The position numbers and the translations under genes are program-made. The notes beneath the pieces are model-generated. The model was not told the origin of the DNA. It saw only the letters and a list, made by a program, of their open reading frames with translations, and made no database searches. From Gammaproteobacteria bacterium (GTDB lineage: Bacteria > Pseudomonadota > Gammaproteobacteria > Thiohalomonadales > Thiohalomonadaceae), in NCBI GenBank assembly GCA_026196575.1, contig JAPHSX010000044.1, forward strand, positions 1 through 52,260: 52,260 nt of DNA. The letters are read 5' to 3'. Of the stretch, positions 1 to 40,026 are shown piece after piece (the stretch's first letter is position 1; each line of letters opens with the position of its first letter).

Positions 1-1176
1 AGAGGTGTTGATCACGTTGCCGTGGCCCAGGTTCTCGAAGAAGCCGGGCAGACGCAGGGCGTTCATACCACCGGAGATGATCGGGGTGGTGGGCTTCATG
101 CCGTGCCACTCCTGGTGGTAGAACGGACCCTGGCAGGAATCACGCTCGATCATGTAGGCGATAACCTTGTCATCCTTGCCGCCTTCCATCTTGCCGAAGC
201 CCATGGTGCCGACGTGGATACCGGAGGCACCCTGCAGACGTGACATCTTGGCCAGAACGAAGGCGGTGTAGCCGCGAACGGATGACGGCGAGGTGACAGC
301 ACCGTGGCCGGCACGATGGTAGTGCAGGTACTGACCGGGGTACTGGCGACGGGCGGTGGTAACCATACCGGGGCCACCAACATAACCGTCAACCAGGAAG
401 GCAACCTTGTCGGCGTCGGCACCGAATGTTTCCAGTACGAAGTCGGCACGGGCACACATTTCGTAGTGGTCGTCGGCGGTGATGTTGGCAGAGAACAGCT
501 TGGCCTGACCGGTTTCGTCCTGGGCGCGCTTCATGGCGTCAGCAACAAGAGGGATAACCTTCTTCATCGGGCAGAAGACCTGGTTACCCTGGGGCTCGTC
601 GTTCTTGATGAAGTCACCACCGAGCCAGAACTGGTAGGCCGCGTGAGCGAAGGGCTCGGGACGCAGGCCCAGCTTCGGCTTGATGATGGTACCGGCGATG
701 TAACCACCGTTCTCGACCGGGCGGCCGAGGATACGCCACATGTCGCTGATGTCCTTGGCCGGGCCATCGAACAGCTGCAGCATACGCGGCGGAACATAGA
801 AGTCCTGCATCTGCAGGTTCTTACAGTCGCCCATACCCTGGTTATTACCAATGGCCAGGGTGAGGAAGGAAACGATCATGGCGCGGCCGTCGATGACGTT
901 GCGGTCGAAGAGGTCGTTCGGGTAGGCGATCTTGATGATGCCCTTGGCTTCATCGCTGTAGTAAACCAGGGCGTCTACGCCCTTGGTGAAGTCATCGGTG
1001 GTAGAAACTTCAACGTTGGTACCGGTAGACGACTCGGCAGCGATGTGCGCCGCCACTTCCAGGTAGCCGTAGCCTTCAGCAGGCTGCATGGTGTAGGCAA
1101 CCAGGATGTGGCCACCACCGGCGATCAGGTCCTCTTCTTTCAGGGAAAGGTCAGCGTAACGTGCAGATTGATCCAT
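1..1176 (-). CDS. cbbM: Form II ribulose-bisphosphate carboxylase (RuBisCO), 3' end cut by window edge
   Basis: This enzyme fixes CO2 onto ribulose 1,5-bisphosphate in the Calvin cycle. The first 392 residues are present; form II enzymes are about 460 residues long, so roughly 70 C-terminal residues lie outside the window. The translation carries the form II landmarks with Rhodospirillum rubrum numbering: [11 protein letters not shown] with Lys166, [11 protein letters not shown] with the carbamylated Lys191 and metal ligands Asp193 and Glu194, and loop 6 [11 protein letters not shown]. The start at 1176 ([10 protein letters not shown]) follows an AGAGGTG ribosome binding site. The absence of form I motifs and of a small-subunit gene in the window supports form II. 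A promoter and a CbbR-type palindrome lie upstream. Confidence 0.97.
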
Positions 1177-15742: not shown

Positions 15743-18700
15743 TCACGCTTTGTGGAGCAGTTTTTCGATATTCGTCATCAGATCGATCTCGGTATAGGGC
15801 TTGCCCATGTACTCATTAACCCCGATATCCAGCGCACGCTGGCGATGCTTGTCGCCGGTGCGCGAGGTGATCATGATGATGGGGAGCTGTCTGAAGCGCT
15901 CGGAGTTGCGCAGGAACGTGGCCAGCTCAAAGCCGTCCATCCGCGGCATCTCGATGTCGAGCAACATGACGTCGGGGGTCACCTCGTCGAGCACCGTGAT
16001 CGCATCCACGCCATCCTTCGCCGTTACACACTGCATATTGTTGCGCTTGAGCAGGCGTTCGGTGACCTTGCGTACGGTAATGGAGTCGTCCACCACCATT
16101 ACCACCGGCTCGCGTTCGAGCGCGACCACCTCCGGATGCACGTCGAGCGCCGCCACGCCACCCAGTTTGGCGAAACCGCGGCGTACCAGTGCCGGCATGT
16201 CGATGATCAGGGCGACACTGCCATCGGCAAGGATGGTGGCACCGGCCAGATGGTGCAGGGTACTGAGCTGCGGCCCCAGGCTCTTTACCACGATCTCGCG
16301 ACTGCCGATCAGGCCGTCAACGGCAAAGGCGACCCGGTGCCCACCACTGCTGGTCAGCAACAGCGGCTGTTTGCTGGCGTGCTGAATCATCCCCTTGCCA
16401 GCGCCAAGTGCTGCGGTCAGGTGCATCAGGTCGTAATCGTCACCTAACCAGTTGTGGGTCGGGTGTTCCGTATCAAGCCGTGCCTCCAGTTCCGCGCCGG
16501 AGATACGCTCGATGCCGCTGATACTCGGCAGCGGGATAGCATAGATATCCTCTCCCACATAGACCAGCAGCGCCCGGCTTACCGAGAGGGTGAGCGGCAG
16601 ACGCGCGGTCATCACACTGCCCTGGCCGTAGACCGAATCGATCTCCAGCACCCCGCCAAGTTGCCGGATCTCGCTGTTGACCACATCCATGCCGACACCG
16701 CGGCCCGCCACCTGGGTCAGGGCATCGGCCGTGGAGAAACCCGACTCCAGAATGAAGTGCATGATCTCCTGATCGGCAAGCTGCGCCCCGGGCTGCATCA
16801 GACCACGGGTGATCGCCTTGTCCTTTACCGCCTCCAGGTTAATACCCGCCCCATCATCGCTGACGCGAATGACAATCTCGGAACCCTCGCGGCTGAGCGC
16901 GATCTTGATACTGCCCTCGTCCGGCTTTCCCGCCTGTTTGCGTACCGCCCGCTCCTCGATGCCGTGTGCAAGGGAGTTGCGCAACATGTGCTCCAGCGGC
17001 GCCATCATGCGCTCCACCACGTTGCGATCCATCTCCACCTCGGCACCCTCAAAGGAGAGCGACGCACGTTTGCCCAGCTCTGCCGCAGTCTGCCGCACCA
17101 CGCGGCGCAGACGCGGTGCGCTTTCAACCATCGGCACCATGCGGGTGTGCATCAGGCTCTCTTGCAGCTCGGTGTTGACCCGTGACTGTTGCAACAGCAG
17201 GGTCTCCGTTTCACGGGAGAGGCCGCGCAACACCTCCTCGATACTGAGCAGGTCATTGAGACTCTCCGCCATCGAGCGTGACAGGGTCTGCATGTTGGTG
17301 AAGCGGTCGAACTCCAGCGGATCGAAATCTTCATACCCCTGCTTTTGCGCCTCGGCGCGCCGCGAGTCAATCTGCGCCTCGGTCTCGATCTCCACCTGCC
17401 GTAACTGCTCGCGCAGACGGGTAATGGTCTGATCCATCTCCCCCAGGTTGGCACCAAAGGTGCCGATCTGCTGTTCCACACGTGAGCGGTAGATACTCAC
17501 CTCACCGGCAAAGTTGACCAGGTCGTCGAGCAGGTCGGCACGCACACGCACCACCTCCTGCTGGATGCGTGGTGCCTTGCGGCGAACCTCACCCGTCTCG
17601 CCCGCCTCGCTCTTCTGCTTCGCCGCGACAAGGTCGACCACGACCTCGTTGCTGATCCCCTCTTCACGGGCCAGTCCCTCGGCGATCAACTCACGGATAG
17701 TGCTGATCAGAAACTGCCCGCTCTCCAGTGGCCGCTGTTCGCGCTGCTGGCTGACGATAAGGTGCATGCGCTCCGCCGCAATGGTGAAGAGATCAGCCAC
17801 CTTCTCGCTAGTCGCCACATGGCCATCGGCCATGGCACTCACCAACAGCTGTACCGCATCGGCGATCTCAATCAGCGGCATGATGGCGGTGACATGACAG
17901 CCACGGTTCAGGGTATCGACCGCATCGCGCAAGGCCACGAAGAGGTCGTTGTCATCCACATCGCGCTGCCAGGCGATTTGCGCCTCGGCAACACGCGCGA
18001 ACAGCTGTTCCAACTCATCACCGGCCTGCGCCTCCGGGCCGGTCTCGACCGTCCCCGCCGCCTCAAGCTCGATCACCTCCGCCTCGTCCTCCGCGGCCTC
18101 CCACCCGGGCGGCAACAGATCAATGGCCTCTTCGGCGGGCGGTGTCTGCGGGTGTGCCAAGGCCTCTACCCGGGCAATCAAATCGTCGCCGGAGATCACC
18201 GGCTCCTGATTACGCACCTGCTCCAGCATCGTCACCAGACGATCGTGCGAGAGTTGCAGCAGATCCATCATCTGCGGGCTGCGCTCCAACAGACCATCGA
18301 CCACCGCATCAAAGGTGGATTCCAGGCTGTGACTCAAATCACCGATGGGGGTGATGCCGGCCATCCGCGCCCCCCCCTTGAGGGTGTGCAGCTGGCGCTG
18401 CAGCGCCTCTATCAGCGAACGATCATCGGGGTGCTCCACCCACGCCTGCAGTGTCTGTTCGCTGGCATCGAGGATGTCAACCGCCTCCTCCAAAAAGATC
18501 TCCAGCAGCTCCTGGTCATACTCCTCTTCCACCGCGCCGGTCGGTTCCGTCCTCGGCGCTGCCGCAAATGCTTCCACCTCCGCTATGCCGTGCGTGATCT
18601 CCGGCTCAGCCAGATCAGCAGCAAGTGCCGATGGCACCTGCTCCGCGACGGAGACAGCATCCAGCGCCAGCGCCAGGAGGTCATCCATCTCCGCCTCCCC

Positions 18701-21619
18701 CTGCGGCACCTCTTCGCCCGACAACCCGGTAACCGGCTCCATGTCGGCAAGTTCATGCTCGGCCGGCAGCTCCTCCACGGCCTCAGCGATCAGCGCATCT
18801 GTCGCCGCCGCCCGCTCAAAATCATCCGCCTCGGCGACTCCGGCCAGCCCCCCCTCGGGCTTGGCGTTGGCCACATGCTCAAGGTGTTGCACCTCGGCAT
18901 AGACCTCACCGGCGAGGCGCTGCGCCTCACCGTTATCCGGGCAGGGCAGGGAGTTATCAAAGAGGTAGGCGAGCAGGTCATTGACATAATCGACACAGTG
19001 GCGCAGCGCCGCCAGCCCCTGGTCGCCCACCGTCTCGTGCAACGCCTGCAGCGTCTTGCCATAGCGCTCCAGCAGGGCACTGACATCGGCGACACTGGTG
19101 ACCCCCGCCATATTCGAGCTACCCTTGAGGGTATGCAGGGCGCGAAGTACCGGCTCGCTGACCCTGCGACTGCCACCCTCCTCGACCTGCTGCAGGAATT
19201 CACTGATCACCTCCAGGTGTCCCTGCGCCTCCTTGCTGTAGATCTCCAGCAGTACCGGGTCAAGGTCGGGGAGTGTCACCGCCGTCTCGGCGAGCGGGGG
19301 CTTGGCGGCGCTTTCGGGCTCAACCAGCTTGACCCCGCCCGGCTGCACGATCTCCTCGGCCATCTGCCGCAGCAGCAGCGCATCATCACTGGGCGAGATC
19401 CCGCTTTTGAAGCCCGTCATCAACTCGGGCAGCACCTGGTGGGCCTGCTCCAGCATATCGAAGATGGTGGCGTTGCCGCTCAGGGTGCCATCAATAATAC
19501 GGTTGAGTATGTTCTCGAAGGCCCAGGCAAACGCCCCGAGCTCACTCGCCCCCACCAGGCGACCACTCCCCTTGAGGGTATGAAAACAGCGGCGCAGATC
19601 CTTGAGACTCTCCTCATCACCCGGATTGCTGCTCCATTTTGGCAACAGTTCGCCAATCTTCTGCAGCTCCTCTTCGACCTCCTCCTCGAATATTTCAAGG
19701 ATCTCCTCGTCGATCTCTACCGTGGCGGCTCCCTGCGGCATACTCGCCTGTACCGCGACCGGCGCCGCCAGTTCAGGCTCGGCAGCAGCGTCGACGTGCG
19801 GTGTCTCGAGCGTGAGCTCCTCCACGGCTGCATCGCCCTCATCTGCCAGCAACGGTTGCGCCTCGGCCTCCGGTGCCGCGCCGTAGTCGTCAATTGATAT
19901 CTCAGGTGTAACATCGCTGCCGGCCTCGTCTTGCGCGGCGTAACCCAGCAGCGCCACCGCGCCCTCTGCCACCTCCAGCACCGAGCCAGGGTGTACCCGG
20001 CTCTGCACAAAGGCCTCAAGGTAATATTCGATGCTCATTACCGCATCGGCCAGGGCATCCAGCTTCTCGGCCGCAGGGAGGTGATCGCTGGCAATCAATT
20101 CCTTTTCGATAAACTGGCCGCAGGCCGTGAGGATCTGCGCCACGCGTTTGTAAGAGAGCAGCTTGAGGCTACCGATAACCAGATGCAGCAATCCCGGAAT
20201 GGCATCCAGCAGCGCCTTCTCCTGCGGCTTCTCCAGATAGGCATTGACCGCCTCACGCATCCGGATGAGGTCATCACGCGCCTCTTTCATCACCTGACGG
20301 GTAACACGCTGGTGCTCGGCAATGGCCTCTGGCGAGGTGTCGGTGTCGGCAACCTGCTCCTCCGCCGCATCGGCCTTCTCCAGCGGCACCACGCTGCCCC
20401 AGTCGCGAAGCGCCGACTCCACCGTGAGGATGGCCCCGGCAATACCCATCAGGGTATCGTCACTGGCCTCGACCTCGCCATCGAGCAACTGCCGCAGCAC
20501 CGTCAACTGGCCGTTCAGGATGGTGCGCAGGCCCTCCTCCTGTAACAGGCTGAGGGTGTCGGCCATGCTGCCGAGACTCTCCACCATCGGCTGCAGGCTC
20601 TCGACGCTACGGCGATCGCTGCGCACATAGATATCGAACACATCCTTGGCGCGGGCAAGCTCCTCCATAATGTCGGCGGAGACGGTCTTTTTCAGCTCCG
20701 CATTGATGCCGCCAAGTGCCGTGTGGTCCGTCGCGCCCAACGCCTCCAACTGAAACGCCTGTTTAACCGCCAGCGCCCGTGGGCCGGCGGCACTGGTACG
20801 GGCCAACTGATAGAGCAGGCGATTCAGCAGCTCACGTACCGCCTCGGCATCGAGCCCCACCTCGTCACTGGCTGCCAGTACCCGGATTTGCTGCTCAATT
20901 TTGGCCAGCAGCAGTCGGGTCTCACCGGAGAGCTGCAGCGCACCGTCACGCAACCCCTCGACAAAGGCCGAGGCGACCCAGAGCAACCGCCGGGCGAGGG
21001 CCCCGCCGGCGACGGGTAGCAACTTCTCGATAACGATGGCGATGATCCGCAGATTGGCGCTCTGATCGAGGCCTTTTATCAGTTTGGCCAGCGCCGTGAG
21101 CAGATAGGGGTGAACCTTCTTCGCCAGTCGTTGCAGGGTGATTTTGGCCGCGAGTGCCGCATCCGCCGCCGGTGCCTCCACCTCCAGATTGGGACGGAAA
21201 TAGTGCTCGGTTTTCAACTCCGGTTCGCCGCGCAGGACGCGCATCTCATTGAGCAGCGGTAACAGTGAAATGGGATTATCCTGCTGGCCGGCCAGCAGAC
21301 TCTCCAGATAATCTGGCAGCTGGAGAATGGCGCGCATCAGCAGCTCAAAGCCCTGGCCACGATTTTCGAACTCTCCATCGCGCAGGGCTACCGCGAACCG
21401 CTCCACCTCTTCGGCAAACAGGGCGGCCCCCAGCAGCTCGACCATCTGCAAGGTGCCGAAGACCTGATGCACATAGCCGATGCAGAACTCCAGCTGTGAC
21501 TGATCGTCCTGATCCTCGACATAGGCCTCAAGGGCGAGCCTCGCCTGCTTTAGCGTCTCGTCGATCTCTCCCTTGACCCAGGCCAAGGTGCTGATATCAA
21601 ACTGCTCAGCCATTTGCAT
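15743..21619 (-). CDS. chpA: Hybrid chemosensory histidine kinase ChpA (PilL type)
   Basis: A 1958-residue CheA-like kinase of the twitching-motility system. Three canonical phosphotransfer domains carry HTLKGS/GG motifs, with phospho-accepting histidines at residues 680, 829 and 1078. An N-terminal region (IGYVHQVFGTLQMVELLGA) and a region near residue 1230 resemble degenerate Hpt domains. These are followed by acidic linkers, a dimerisation/HATPase module (N-box MLRNSLAHGIEE near 1546, then DDGAGI), a CheW-like domain, and a C-terminal receiver with VVDDSITVRK and phospho-acceptor Asp1888 (MLLDIEMPRMDG). The Pseudomonas protein is longer, with more Hpt-like domains. It lies between pilK and chpC. 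Confidence 0.95.
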   Translation of the reverse strand: MQMAEQFDISTLAWVKGEIDETLKQARLALEAYVEDQDDQSQLEFCIGYVHQVFGTLQMVELLGAALFAEEVERFAVALRDGEFENRGQGFELLMRAILQLPDYLESLLAGQQDNPISLLPLLNEMRVLRGEPELKTEHYFRPNLEVEAPAADAALAAKITLQRLAKKVHPYLLTALAKLIKGLDQSANLRIIAIVIEKLLPVAGGALARRLLWVASAFVEGLRDGALQLSGETRLLLAKIEQQIRVLAASDEVGLDAEAVRELLNRLLYQLARTSAAGPRALAVKQAFQLEALGATDHTALGGINAELKKTVSADIMEELARAKDVFDIYVRSDRRSVESLQPMVESLGSMADTLSLLQEEGLRTILNGQLTVLRQLLDGEVEASDDTLMGIAGAILTVESALRDWGSVVPLEKADAAEEQVADTDTSPEAIAEHQRVTRQVMKEARDDLIRMREAVNAYLEKPQEKALLDAIPGLLHLVIGSLKLLSYKRVAQILTACGQFIEKELIASDHLPAAEKLDALADAVMSIEYYLEAFVQSRVHPGSVLEVAEGAVALLGYAAQDEAGSDVTPEISIDDYGAAPEAEAQPLLADEGDAAVEELTLETPHVDAAAEPELAAPVAVQASMPQGAATVEIDEEILEIFEEEVEEELQKIGELLPKWSSNPGDEESLKDLRRCFHTLKGSGRLVGASELGAFAWAFENILNRIIDGTLSGNATIFDMLEQAHQVLPELMTGFKSGISPSDDALLLRQMAEEIVQPGGVKLVEPESAAKPPLAETAVTLPDLDPVLLEIYSKEAQGHLEVISEFLQQVEEGGSRRVSEPVLRALHTLKGSSNMAGVTSVADVSALLERYGKTLQALHETVGDQGLAALRHCVDYVNDLLAYLFDNSLPCPDNGEAQRLAGEVYAEVQHLEHVANAKPEGGLAGVAEADDFERAAATDALIAEAVEELPAEHELADMEPVTGLSGEEVPQGEAEMDDLLALALDAVSVAEQVPSALAADLAEPEITHGIAEVEAFAAAPRTEPTGAVEEEYDQELLEIFLEEAVDILDASEQTLQAWVEHPDDRSLIEALQRQLHTLKGGARMAGITPIGDLSHSLESTFDAVVDGLLERSPQMMDLLQLSHDRLVTMLEQVRNQEPVISGDDLIARVEALAHPQTPPAEEAIDLLPPGWEAAEDEAEVIELEAAGTVETGPEAQAGDELEQLFARVAEAQIAWQRDVDDNDLFVALRDAVDTLNRGCHVTAIMPLIEIADAVQLLVSAMADGHVATSEKVADLFTIAAERMHLIVSQQREQRPLESGQFLISTIRELIAEGLAREEGISNEVVVDLVAAKQKSEAGETGEVRRKAPRIQQEVVRVRADLLDDLVNFAGEVSIYRSRVEQQIGTFGANLGEMDQTITRLREQLRQVEIETEAQIDSRRAEAQKQGYEDFDPLEFDRFTNMQTLSRSMAESLNDLLSIEEVLRGLSRETETLLLQQSRVNTELQESLMHTRMVPMVESAPRLRRVVRQTAAELGKRASLSFEGAEVEMDRNVVERMMAPLEHMLRNSLAHGIEERAVRKQAGKPDEGSIKIALSREGSEIVIRVSDDGAGINLEAVKDKAITRGLMQPGAQLADQEIMHFILESGFSTADALTQVAGRGVGMDVVNSEIRQLGGVLEIDSVYGQGSVMTARLPLTLSVSRALLVYVGEDIYAIPLPSISGIERISGAELEARLDTEHPTHNWLGDDYDLMHLTAALGAGKGMIQHASKQPLLLTSSGGHRVAFAVDGLIGSREIVVKSLGPQLSTLHHLAGATILADGSVALIIDMPALVRRGFAKLGGVAALDVHPEVVALEREPVVMVVDDSITVRKVTERLLKRNNMQCVTAKDGVDAITVLDEVTPDVMLLDIEMPRMDGFELATFLRNSERFRQLPIIMITSRTGDKHRQRALDIGVNEYMGKPYTEIDLMTNIEKLLHKA

Positions 21620-37886: not shown

Positions 37887-37889
37887 CGC

Positions 37890-37917
37890 TTGTACTCACA
37901 AATAAGTGCAATATATT
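37890..37917 (+). promoter_or_regulatory. Probable promoter of the dynamin-like GTPase gene
   Basis: TTGTAC (37890-37895) and TATATT (37912-37917) are 16 bases apart, matching sigma70 elements at four and five positions. The leader to the ATG at 38056 would be about 130 bases and is A-rich. The GTPase gene is thus probably its own transcription unit. Confidence 0.5.
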
Positions 37918-38055
37918 AGGTGAGCGGCCGATGATGGCGAGGGGATGAAAAATCATGCACCCCTTCACAAAAAGCAGATAAAAAAATGGTTTTGGCGGGG
38001 TGGCTGTGCCATAACCCCCCGTTGCGAGAGATAACTAAAAACAGAGATCACCAGC

Positions 38056-40026
38056 ATGTCGGAAAAACGCTTTACCGAGCAGATGAAGGCCTATGGCCAG
38101 TGGAAATCGGATCTGGTCACCAACATTGGCGATTACCAGAAGTGGCTCGATGCCAACGGCATGGGCTCCCCCGAGGATGAGCTGCGCATCTACGAAAGCC
38201 TCGCCGCACTGCGCTCCGACAAGCTCACCATCGCCTTTGTCGCCGAATTTGCCCGCGGCAAGACCGAGCTGATTAACGCCATCTTTTTCTCCGAATATGA
38301 CCGTCGCCTGCTCCCCTCCGAGGCGGGGCGCACCACCATGTGCCCCACCGAACTGTTCTACGACGCCGAGCACCAGCACGCCTACATCCGCCTGTTGCCC
38401 ATTGAGACCCGCCTCAATGACACCAGCGTCGCCGAGTATAAGGAAGACCCGATCCACTGGAGCAGCATGGAGCTGGACCTGGAGAATCCGGACAACATGG
38501 CCGATGCCTTTCAGGAGATCGTCAAGGTCAAAAAGGTATCGCGCGACGAGGCGCGCCGGCTCGGTCTCTACGACGACTCCGACAGCCACCTCAACAACCC
38601 CGACGGCAGCCCGCCCGACGAGATCGAGATTCCGTTGTGGCGCCACGCCCTCATCAGCTTCCCCCACCCGCTGCTCAAGCAGGGGCTGGTGATCCTCGAC
38701 ACCCCCGGCCTCAATGCCCTGGGGAGCGAGCCGGAGCTGACCCTCAACATGATCCCCAAGGCGCAGGGGGTGATGTTCATCATGGCCGCCGATACCGGGG
38801 TCACCAAATCCGATCTTGAGATGTGGTCCAGCAACGTCAAACCGGGGCGGGCCGGCAAGGAGAAGGGGCTGGTGGTGATCCTCAACAAGATCGACACCCT
38901 GTGGGATGACCTCAAGTCCCGTGAGCAGATCGCCAAGACCATCAATGAGCAGTGCGGCAAGGCGGCGCAGACCCTGGGCATTGATCTCAGCACCGTGATC
39001 CCGGTCTCGGCACAGAAGGGGCTGCTGGCCAAGATCCGCCACGATCAGGAGCTGCTCACGCGCAGCAACATCCTGGCGCTGGAGTCAATCCTCGCCAACG
39101 AGATCCTCCCCTATCAGCAAGAGCTGGTGCGCGACCACGTCAAGGGGGACGTTGGCGCCATGGTCAAGCAGTCATGCGACCTGCTCGCCTCGCGCTTCCA
39201 CTCGGTGAAGAGTCAACTGCAGGAGCTCAGCGGTCTCAGCGGCAAGAACAATGAGGTGATCGAGCACCTGATGCGCAAGACCCGCGAGGAGCAGGTCGCC
39301 TACCACAAGAATGTGGAGAGCTTTAACGCCAACAAAAAGATCCTCTCTGACCAGAGCAAGCAGCTGCTGGCACTACTCAGCCTCTCCGAGCTCGACAAAC
39401 TGGTCTCCCGCAGCCGTGAGTCGATGACCGGCAGTTGGACCACCGCCGGTCTGAAGAATGGGATGAAGACCTTCTTCGACGGCGTCAGCAACATGCTCAC
39501 CCAGGTCGATGACTACTCCGAGCAGCTCAATCGCCTGGTCACCACCGTCTACCACCAGTTCCAGTCTGAGCACGCGATTCAGGGGGTAGAGCCGGTGCTC
39601 TATAACATCGAAAAATATGTGGCCGAACTGCGCAAACTGGAGGAGGAGGGGGAGGCCTTTCGCAACAGCCCGGTGACGGCGATGACCGAGCAATCCTTTG
39701 TGGTGAAAAAATTCTTCATCACACTGGTCAGCCACGCCCGCAACATCTTCTTCAAGGCGCACCGCGACGCCGAGTCGTGGAGCAAGGCGGTGATGTCACC
39801 GCTGGTCAGGCAGATCAAGGATCACAAGGAGCAGATGGACAAGCGGCTGGAGAATCTGCGCAAGATCAACGAATCGCGCGACACCCTGGAGGAGCGCATC
39901 GCCGAGCTGAAGAAACAGGCCGTGGTGTTGAAAAAACAGCATGATGAGGTCAACAACATCCTCAAGGTGATCAACCGCCCGCTCAATCAGCAAACGGTGC
40001 CGCAGAGGCAGCAACCCGCCGCCTGA
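38056..40026 (+). CDS. Dynamin-like large GTPase
   Basis: A 656-residue protein with an N-terminal GTPase domain: P-loop AEFARGKT at residues 63-70 (Ala63 replaces the usual first Gly), a Thr in the GRTTMCPTEL switch, G3 DTPG at 215-218 and G4 NKID at 277-280. The C-terminal half is predicted helical and coiled (residues about 330-650, ending in KKQAVVLKKQHDEVNNILKVI). An aromatic-rich stretch near 540-560 (VVKKFFITLVSHARNIFFKAH) could bind membrane. Bacterial dynamin-like proteins remodel membranes, but this one has no assigned role. It stands alone, set between yggU and metX. Confidence 0.82.
   Translation: MSEKRFTEQMKAYGQWKSDLVTNIGDYQKWLDANGMGSPEDELRIYESLAALRSDKLTIAFVAEFARGKTELINAIFFSEYDRRLLPSEAGRTTMCPTELFYDAEHQHAYIRLLPIETRLNDTSVAEYKEDPIHWSSMELDLENPDNMADAFQEIVKVKKVSRDEARRLGLYDDSDSHLNNPDGSPPDEIEIPLWRHALISFPHPLLKQGLVILDTPGLNALGSEPELTLNMIPKAQGVMFIMAADTGVTKSDLEMWSSNVKPGRAGKEKGLVVILNKIDTLWDDLKSREQIAKTINEQCGKAAQTLGIDLSTVIPVSAQKGLLAKIRHDQELLTRSNILALESILANEILPYQQELVRDHVKGDVGAMVKQSCDLLASRFHSVKSQLQELSGLSGKNNEVIEHLMRKTREEQVAYHKNVESFNANKKILSDQSKQLLALLSLSELDKLVSRSRESMTGSWTTAGLKNGMKTFFDGVSNMLTQVDDYSEQLNRLVTTVYHQFQSEHAIQGVEPVLYNIEKYVAELRKLEEEGEAFRNSPVTAMTEQSFVVKKFFITLVSHARNIFFKAHRDAESWSKAVMSPLVRQIKDHKEQMDKRLENLRKINESRDTLEERIAELKKQAVVLKKQHDEVNNILKVINRPLNQQTVPQRQQPAA

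Follow-up and report, generated by a model that had tools for sequence, protein, structure and literature searches.

Genes for bacterial dynamin-like proteins (DLPs) are described in PMC6104087 as mostly paired in operons. For Campylobacter jejuni the same source reports that Cj-DLP2 requires the FVLF motif of its trunk tip for lipid binding, which is lost in the mutants. For BDLP, the paddle residues L576/L577 and F583 are stated to be needed for lipid binding (PMC2862293). The dynamin-like protein RdcA of E. coli is presented in PMC6510439 as a soluble cytoplasmic protein that acts in signaling and regulates DgcE, which speaks against a membrane reading. According to PMC6374313, CrfC regulates the positioning of the nucleoid.

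Here, a DLP gene was analyzed that is located in a contig of a gammaproteobacterium of the GTDB family Thiohalomonadaceae (the window, 52,260 nucleotides, JAPHSX010000044.1). Its solo occurrence at a recurring site of the chromosome makes it a useful exception to the paired-operon pattern.

A conserved gene for a dynamin-type GTPase

The gene has the following position:

38056..40026, + strand: dynamin-like GTPase gene (open frame, Dynamin_N match, relatives, dN/dS)

The open reading frame starts with ATG and encodes 656 amino acids plus the stop codon. Pfam analysis revealed a Dynamin_N match (E 6.7e-14, 52.7 bits versus a cut-off of 27), and the dN/dS values against three relatives with 78-79% identity were 0.16-0.19. 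The gene is real and under purifying selection. An antisense frame (38035-39042, - strand) was set aside, presumably a chance frame in GC-rich DNA. No NCBIfam model scored above its curated cut-off for the 656-aa protein. The sequence-only reading had named clear orthology to a characterized family as an observation that would speak against it, and no clear case was found with NCBIfam and hhalign. A description of this solo GTPase family was not found in the open-access PMC literature; as far as that literature goes, the family is uncharacterized and adds one more BDLP-class bacterial dynamin.

The G domain contains the following motifs:

38242..38265, + strand: G1 or P-loop, AEFARGKT, residues 63-70 (Ala/Gly counts in the family rows)
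38326..38355, + strand: G2 region, GRTTMCPTEL, residues 91-100 (T93 and T94 invariant in 59 rows)
38689..38724, + strand: G3, VILDTPGLNALG, residues 212-223, with DTPG (family alignment)
38878..38910, + strand: G4, ILNKIDTLWDD, residues 275-285, with NKID (family alignment)
38998..39024, + strand: G5-like, IPVSAQKGL, residues 315-323, with SAQK (family rows)

As the sequence-only reading had pointed out, the P-loop starts with Ala, but its description as altered did not hold. Ala is present at the first position in 75 of 81 members and Gly in 6 (the 81 rows stem from 110 loci after removal of duplicates and of three proteins shorter than 580 aa, L005, L018 and L051), while a wider set of 95 members contains 80 with Ala and 15 with Gly. 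Ala-first is thus the commoner form and a trait of the family, and it is a legal Walker A, the usual pattern of which is [AG]x4GK[ST]. The variant GEYSRGKT is the P-loop of 5 of the 95 members.

The key residues of G1 to G4 are invariant in 59 aligned members. The G1, G2 and G4 patterns were found in all 95 members, and DTPG of G3 in 94, with DSPG in the remaining one. The motifs are therefore retained in the relatives, in which a loss had been named as an observation that would weaken the initial interpretation. The protein has a dynamin-type G domain with G1 to G4 and the G2 threonine, as in the BDLP/mitofusin class. A degenerate P-loop with an inactive GTPase was rejected in view of the retained G1-G4 patterns and the prevalence of the Ala-first form, and the simplest reading of the motifs is that of an active GTPase.

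Predicted structure and a candidate membrane-binding tip

A structure was predicted with AlphaFold from 59 sequences (pLDDT 83.1, pTM 0.71) and compared with known bacterial dynamins, a check that had been proposed for this gene. The C-terminal half of the model is nearly all helix, in agreement with the long helical half noticed initially. BDLP ranked first with both search methods. With Foldseek the top entry was 2j69 (E 3.2e-19), followed by IniA, SynDLP, Cj-DLP and the mitofusins; the TM-scores were modest, i.e., 0.47 to 2j69 with a global rmsd of 12.9, which counts against the explanation favored below. With VIA the top entry was 2j68 (Z 21.8, 522 of 656 residues aligned, rmsd 5.8), tied with MFN2 (Z 21.3) and Fzo1 (Z 21.0, G domain only). 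The family profile also reached solved chains of BDLP (1.1e-14), SynDLP (1.8e-8), MFN2 (1.9e-8) and LeoA (5e-7). In the predicted model, the GTPase-neck-trunk architecture of the BDLP/mitofusin class extends over the whole chain (Z 21.8 to 2j68). By its predicted fold, the protein is a dynamin-like GTPase of this class.

Two regions of the C-terminal half were analyzed separately:

39241..39879, + strand: trunk helices, residues 396-608 (predicted alone, pLDDT 90.6)
39676..39753, + strand: candidate membrane-binding tip, TAMTEQSFVVKKFFITLVSHARNIFF, residues 541-566 (conservation, hydrophobicity, charge)

When the trunk was compared alone with VIA, all 213 residues aligned with Cj-DLP2 (5owv_C, Z 11.6, rmsd 3.5, rank 4). 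By itself this likeness is weak evidence, because a designed helical bundle scored higher (Z 13.8) and Foldseek gave no match for the trunk alone at E <= 0.001. The main basis for the predicted likeness of the trunk is the match of the whole chain.

Conservation within residues 341-640 peaks in the 15-residue window 544-558, TEQSFVVKKFFITLV, with a mean identity of 0.73 versus a mean of 0.51. This window overlaps the most hydrophobic 18-residue window of the C-terminal half, which starts at residue 548; the motif of the candidate tip is TEQSFVxKKFF. The family mean of the net charge over residues 537-565 is +2.4. A transmembrane stretch was not found, the KD19 maximum being 1.09 for this protein and 1.66 over the 59 members. 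We infer that residues 541-566 are a putative membrane contact, their place at the tip being deduced from the order of the helices, not from coordinates.

A resident of a conserved chromosomal block

Profile searches named the genes of the window in the order PilT/PilU family (twice), YggS, ProC, YggT, YggU/DUF167, GTPase, MetX and MetW, and the position between yggU and metX given by the sequence-only reading was thus correct (Pfam, NCBIfam). Elsewhere in the window, an open reading frame of 1958 aa (15743-21619, - strand) is present, which by its size may encode a pilus-system kinase of the PilL/ChpA type.

The analysis of gene order covered 82 loci with wider flanks, which were picked from the matches and do not comprise all of them; the loci span 8-18 kb, and some end at contig ends. 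The gene labels are sequence clusters named by eye, with profile confirmation for the genes of the window, mutM and mutY of L066 and coaD of L068. Among the first 68 loci, proC precedes the GTPase gene by at most six genes in 51 and mutM does so in 9, and 8 are other or cut. The 14 further loci comprise 9 with proC, 4 with mutM and one with mutY behind the GTPase gene but no mutM match. Over all 82 loci the proC context amounts to 60, the mutM context to 14 and other or cut to 8, so that the gene indeed lies inside a conserved block. The proC context is mostly yggS-proC-yggT(-yggU), although yggS or yggT is not visible in every proC locus. The direct upstream neighbor is yggT or yggU in 45 of the 68 loci.

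The remark that the gene order is otherwise that of Pseudomonas turned out to be misleading. Locus L136 has the order of the window, i.e., pilT/U, yggS, proC, yggT, yggU, GTPase, metX and metW, and its PilT is about 95% identical (counted by eye) to PDB 3jvu, which we take to be P. aeruginosa PilT and on which we base the term Pseudomonas-like for this genome. Because the same gene is present at the same place in L136, the GTPase gene belongs to the Pseudomonas-type block, and an insertion into that block was rejected. The gene is a resident of the conserved block, not an intruder.

A separate observation concerns the downstream region. In 7 of the 68 loci (L022, L062, L076, L084, L099, L101 and L110), one of the five genes that follow the GTPase gene encodes a protein of the PAS-GGDEF-EAL type, an identity that rests on one checked cluster member, in L091.

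The spacer behind yggU contains one shared element:

37889..37917, + strand: promoter-like element CTTGT-(n)-CAATATATT, directly behind yggU (shared upstream regions)

It is present in three of four aligned upstream regions (the window, L002 and L003) and absent from L004, and the spacers around it are otherwise diverged. The promoter of its own that had been ascribed to the gene was thus borne out in part: the shared element is in favor of it, but a promoter consensus scan gave 0 sites. The spacer between yggU and the GTPase gene is 169 bp in the window, and 39 of 45 measured spacers elsewhere exceed 100 bp (based on the first start); an operon with yggU was rejected on these grounds. From the upstream regions, a separate promoter is plausible.

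One dynamin gene per locus

In each of the 82 loci exactly one protein matched the G-domain profile of the family (E <= 0.001). A motif scan yielded one further candidate, which turned out to be BipA. None of the 82 loci contained adjacent or fused DLP genes. A partner as distant as BDLP or LeoA should have shown up, because the full profile reaches both in PDB; a more distant partner could escape the family profile. The claim that the gene stands alone was therefore confirmed for the neighborhood, in 82 of 82 loci, but not for the genome, which contains another Dynamin_N protein (G000:C32).

This second protein (L111:613-2148, - strand) has 511 aa and two apparent membrane stretches, as judged by eye. 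Of the products of the genes before it, one has 160 aa and matches DUF948 weakly, and the other has 246 aa. Among the other genomes searched of the same GTDB family, 11 of 18 contain this second Dynamin_N protein, as does 1 of 11 outside the family. The search of relatives with the 656-aa GTPase did not pick it up.

Distribution in genomes, phages and plasmids

In its own GTDB family the GTPase was found in all 20 genomes searched, including that of the window, with one match running into a contig end; the search of relatives yielded matches in 24 of 39 genomes overall. A draw from the class gave matches in 99 of 369 genomes at E <= 0.001, of which 94 were counted as carriers after 5 matches with E above 1e-20 had been left out. 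In a draw from the phylum, the profile matched 21 of 249 genomes at E <= 1e-10; 20 belong to the class (own genome included), and the one outside it is weak and partial. In the family of one Pseudomonas-like genome the GTPase is present in 29 and absent from 30 of 59 genomes; it is thus dispensable in some lineages, which counts against the favored explanation. At E 1e-5 there was no match among 50,697 phage records or 72,556 plasmid records, and a mobile gene or a defense gene was therefore rejected. As a side observation, genome G302 contains, in addition to a full-length copy elsewhere, a stretch of 142 residues that is 72% identical to the N-terminus of the GTPase (C1:603891-604316), possibly a partial copy.

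A tree of 95 members (FastTree, midpoint-rooted) united the 14 rows with mutM context and L064 in one clade with a support of 0.997. Two genomes, G076 and G316, each hold one copy per context (L059/L060 and L057/L058, respectively). These findings suggest that an old duplication led to the two recurring addresses; the order of the events is a guess, because the midpoint root is one. The next gene after the GTPase gene is mutY in 7 of the 14 mutM-clade loci (L065, L066, L141 and L146-L149), with a mutY start at most 7 bp from the GTPase stop codon, or an overlap, in 5 of the 7. In L147 and L148 the mutY frame is open back into the GTPase gene, and therefore its start is indefinite; in L149 mutY lies behind the GTPase gene with no mutM match.

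Proposed role

The explanation that we consider probable is that the protein is a solo DLP of the BDLP/mitofusin class, encoded on the chromosome and mostly vertically inherited, which as a cytosolic homo-oligomer binds the inner membrane with the tip of its trunk and remodels or guards this membrane. The intact GTPase domain and the predicted BDLP-like architecture were computed; the cytosolic location, the membrane step and the assembly are inferred. The GTPase would reside in the cytosol. Loading with GTP would lead to pairing of the G domains and opening of the neck-trunk hinge, and the conserved, amphipathic and basic stretch at the trunk tip would insert into the inner membrane from the cytosolic side. 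Assembly of a homo-oligomer, without a partner dynamin, would then bend, tether or seal the membrane, and GTP hydrolysis would release the GTPase. The role is likely to be membrane maintenance under stress, and among the roles offered by the sequence-only reading membrane maintenance is the likeliest. A membrane or GTPase assay on this family was not found in the open-access PMC literature, which counts against the membrane reading. The presence of the family in a Pseudomonas-like genome and in many members of the class makes it amenable to work in tractable strains, and it could reveal the task of a dynamin encoded by a housekeeping gene of ordinary Gram-negative bacteria.

Alternative explanations

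The main rival is a non-membrane role, because CrfC/RdcA, a regulator of the nucleoid or of DgcE, is homologous in the G domain. The protein would serve as a soluble GTPase scaffold and regulate a partner, like RdcA (CrfC, YjdA) in E. coli signaling or nucleoid positioning, and would not remodel membranes. We regard this as unlikely. The hhalign comparison with RdcA/CrfC has a probability of 96.7% (E 4.5e-10, residues 50-326), but the likeness to CrfC ends at the G domain, whereas 522 of the 656 residues of the model align with BDLP. The neighbors are in favor of this rival: yggT or yggU is directly upstream in 45 of 68 loci, a relative of YggT, YlmG, acts in chloroplast and cyanobacterial nucleoid distribution according to PMC2923531, and mutY is next in 7 of 14 mutM-clade loci, with an overlap or a distance of at most 7 bp in 5 of 7; however, shared gene order can lack a functional reason. 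The PAS-GGDEF-EAL protein in 7 of 68 loci recalls RdcA and DgcE, but such a neighbor is rare.

A further reading, which we consider improbable, is a membrane-bound GTPase of the genome-maintenance machinery that connects the inner membrane with the state of the nucleoid or with the repair of oxidative DNA damage. If true, both addresses, beside yggT and behind mutM, half with mutY next, would be functional, and the protein would be the counterpart, in other gammaproteobacteria, of the proposed role of CrfC in E. coli.

Phage defense in the style of Leo or DynA, by sealing membrane holes or delaying lysis, had also been listed as a possible role and is quite improbable. The PADLOC profile LeoBC matched 52 of 59 members at E <= 0.001 (best 3e-16; the GTPase of the window weakly, 5.8e-8), and DynA of B. 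subtilis is reported to confer phage resistance (PMC8844932). However, the PADLOC match may reflect generic dynamin similarity, and a dedicated defense role fits poorly with recurring chromosomal sites in housekeeping blocks and with the absence from the collections of 50,697 phage and 72,556 plasmid records. A DLP mutant of Pseudomonas pseudoalcaligenes was considered as a phenotype for the family and rejected, since PMC6344628 describes this DLP as a LeoA ortholog beside a phage integrase.

A factor for sulfur globules or intracytoplasmic membranes of sulfur oxidizers, likewise among the listed roles, is very improbable: the host genome has dsrA and soxB above cut-off, and in the 369 genomes, in a phyletic profile against sulfur oxidizers, carriers were associated with dsrA (50 of 94, Fisher p 6e-8) and soxB (62 of 94, p 5.5e-9) by a statistic that ignores shared ancestry, which alone could account for the association, but the link is neither necessary nor sufficient, as 44 of the 94 carriers lack dsrA above cut-off and 29 lack both genes, 62 of 112 genomes with dsrA lack the GTPase, and a Pseudomonas-like genome carries it.

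Comparison with known systems

The G domain is homologous to that of CrfC/RdcA (YjdA) of E. coli, and homology beyond it was not found, as the hhalign alignment covers only about residues 50-326. In E. coli rdcB adjoins rdcA; the downstream neighbor of the GTPase gene in the window is metX. LeoABC of enterotoxigenic E. coli shares the PADLOC profile that matches 52 of 59 family members; the leoABC operon is located on a pathogenicity island (as cited in PMC6344628), in contrast to the solo gene in a housekeeping block described here. The mitofusins MFN1, MFN2 and Fzo1, in truncated forms, belong to the same fold class (Z about 18-21). According to PMC6104087 they have membrane-anchoring tip helices, whereas the GTPase has no transmembrane stretch. 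Cj-DLP1 and Cj-DLP2 of Campylobacter jejuni (5owv, 5oxf) form a heterotypic pair, in contrast to the single G domain in each of the 82 loci, but the trunk aligns with that of Cj-DLP2, the tip of which has a hydrophobic motif. BDLP of Nostoc punctiforme (2j68, 2j69) is also among the closest systems. A second DLP gene adjoins that of BDLP1 (PMC6104087), in contrast to the loci analyzed here, and the identity in the VIA rows is 13-14%; the predicted GTPase-neck-trunk fold is the same over most of the length.
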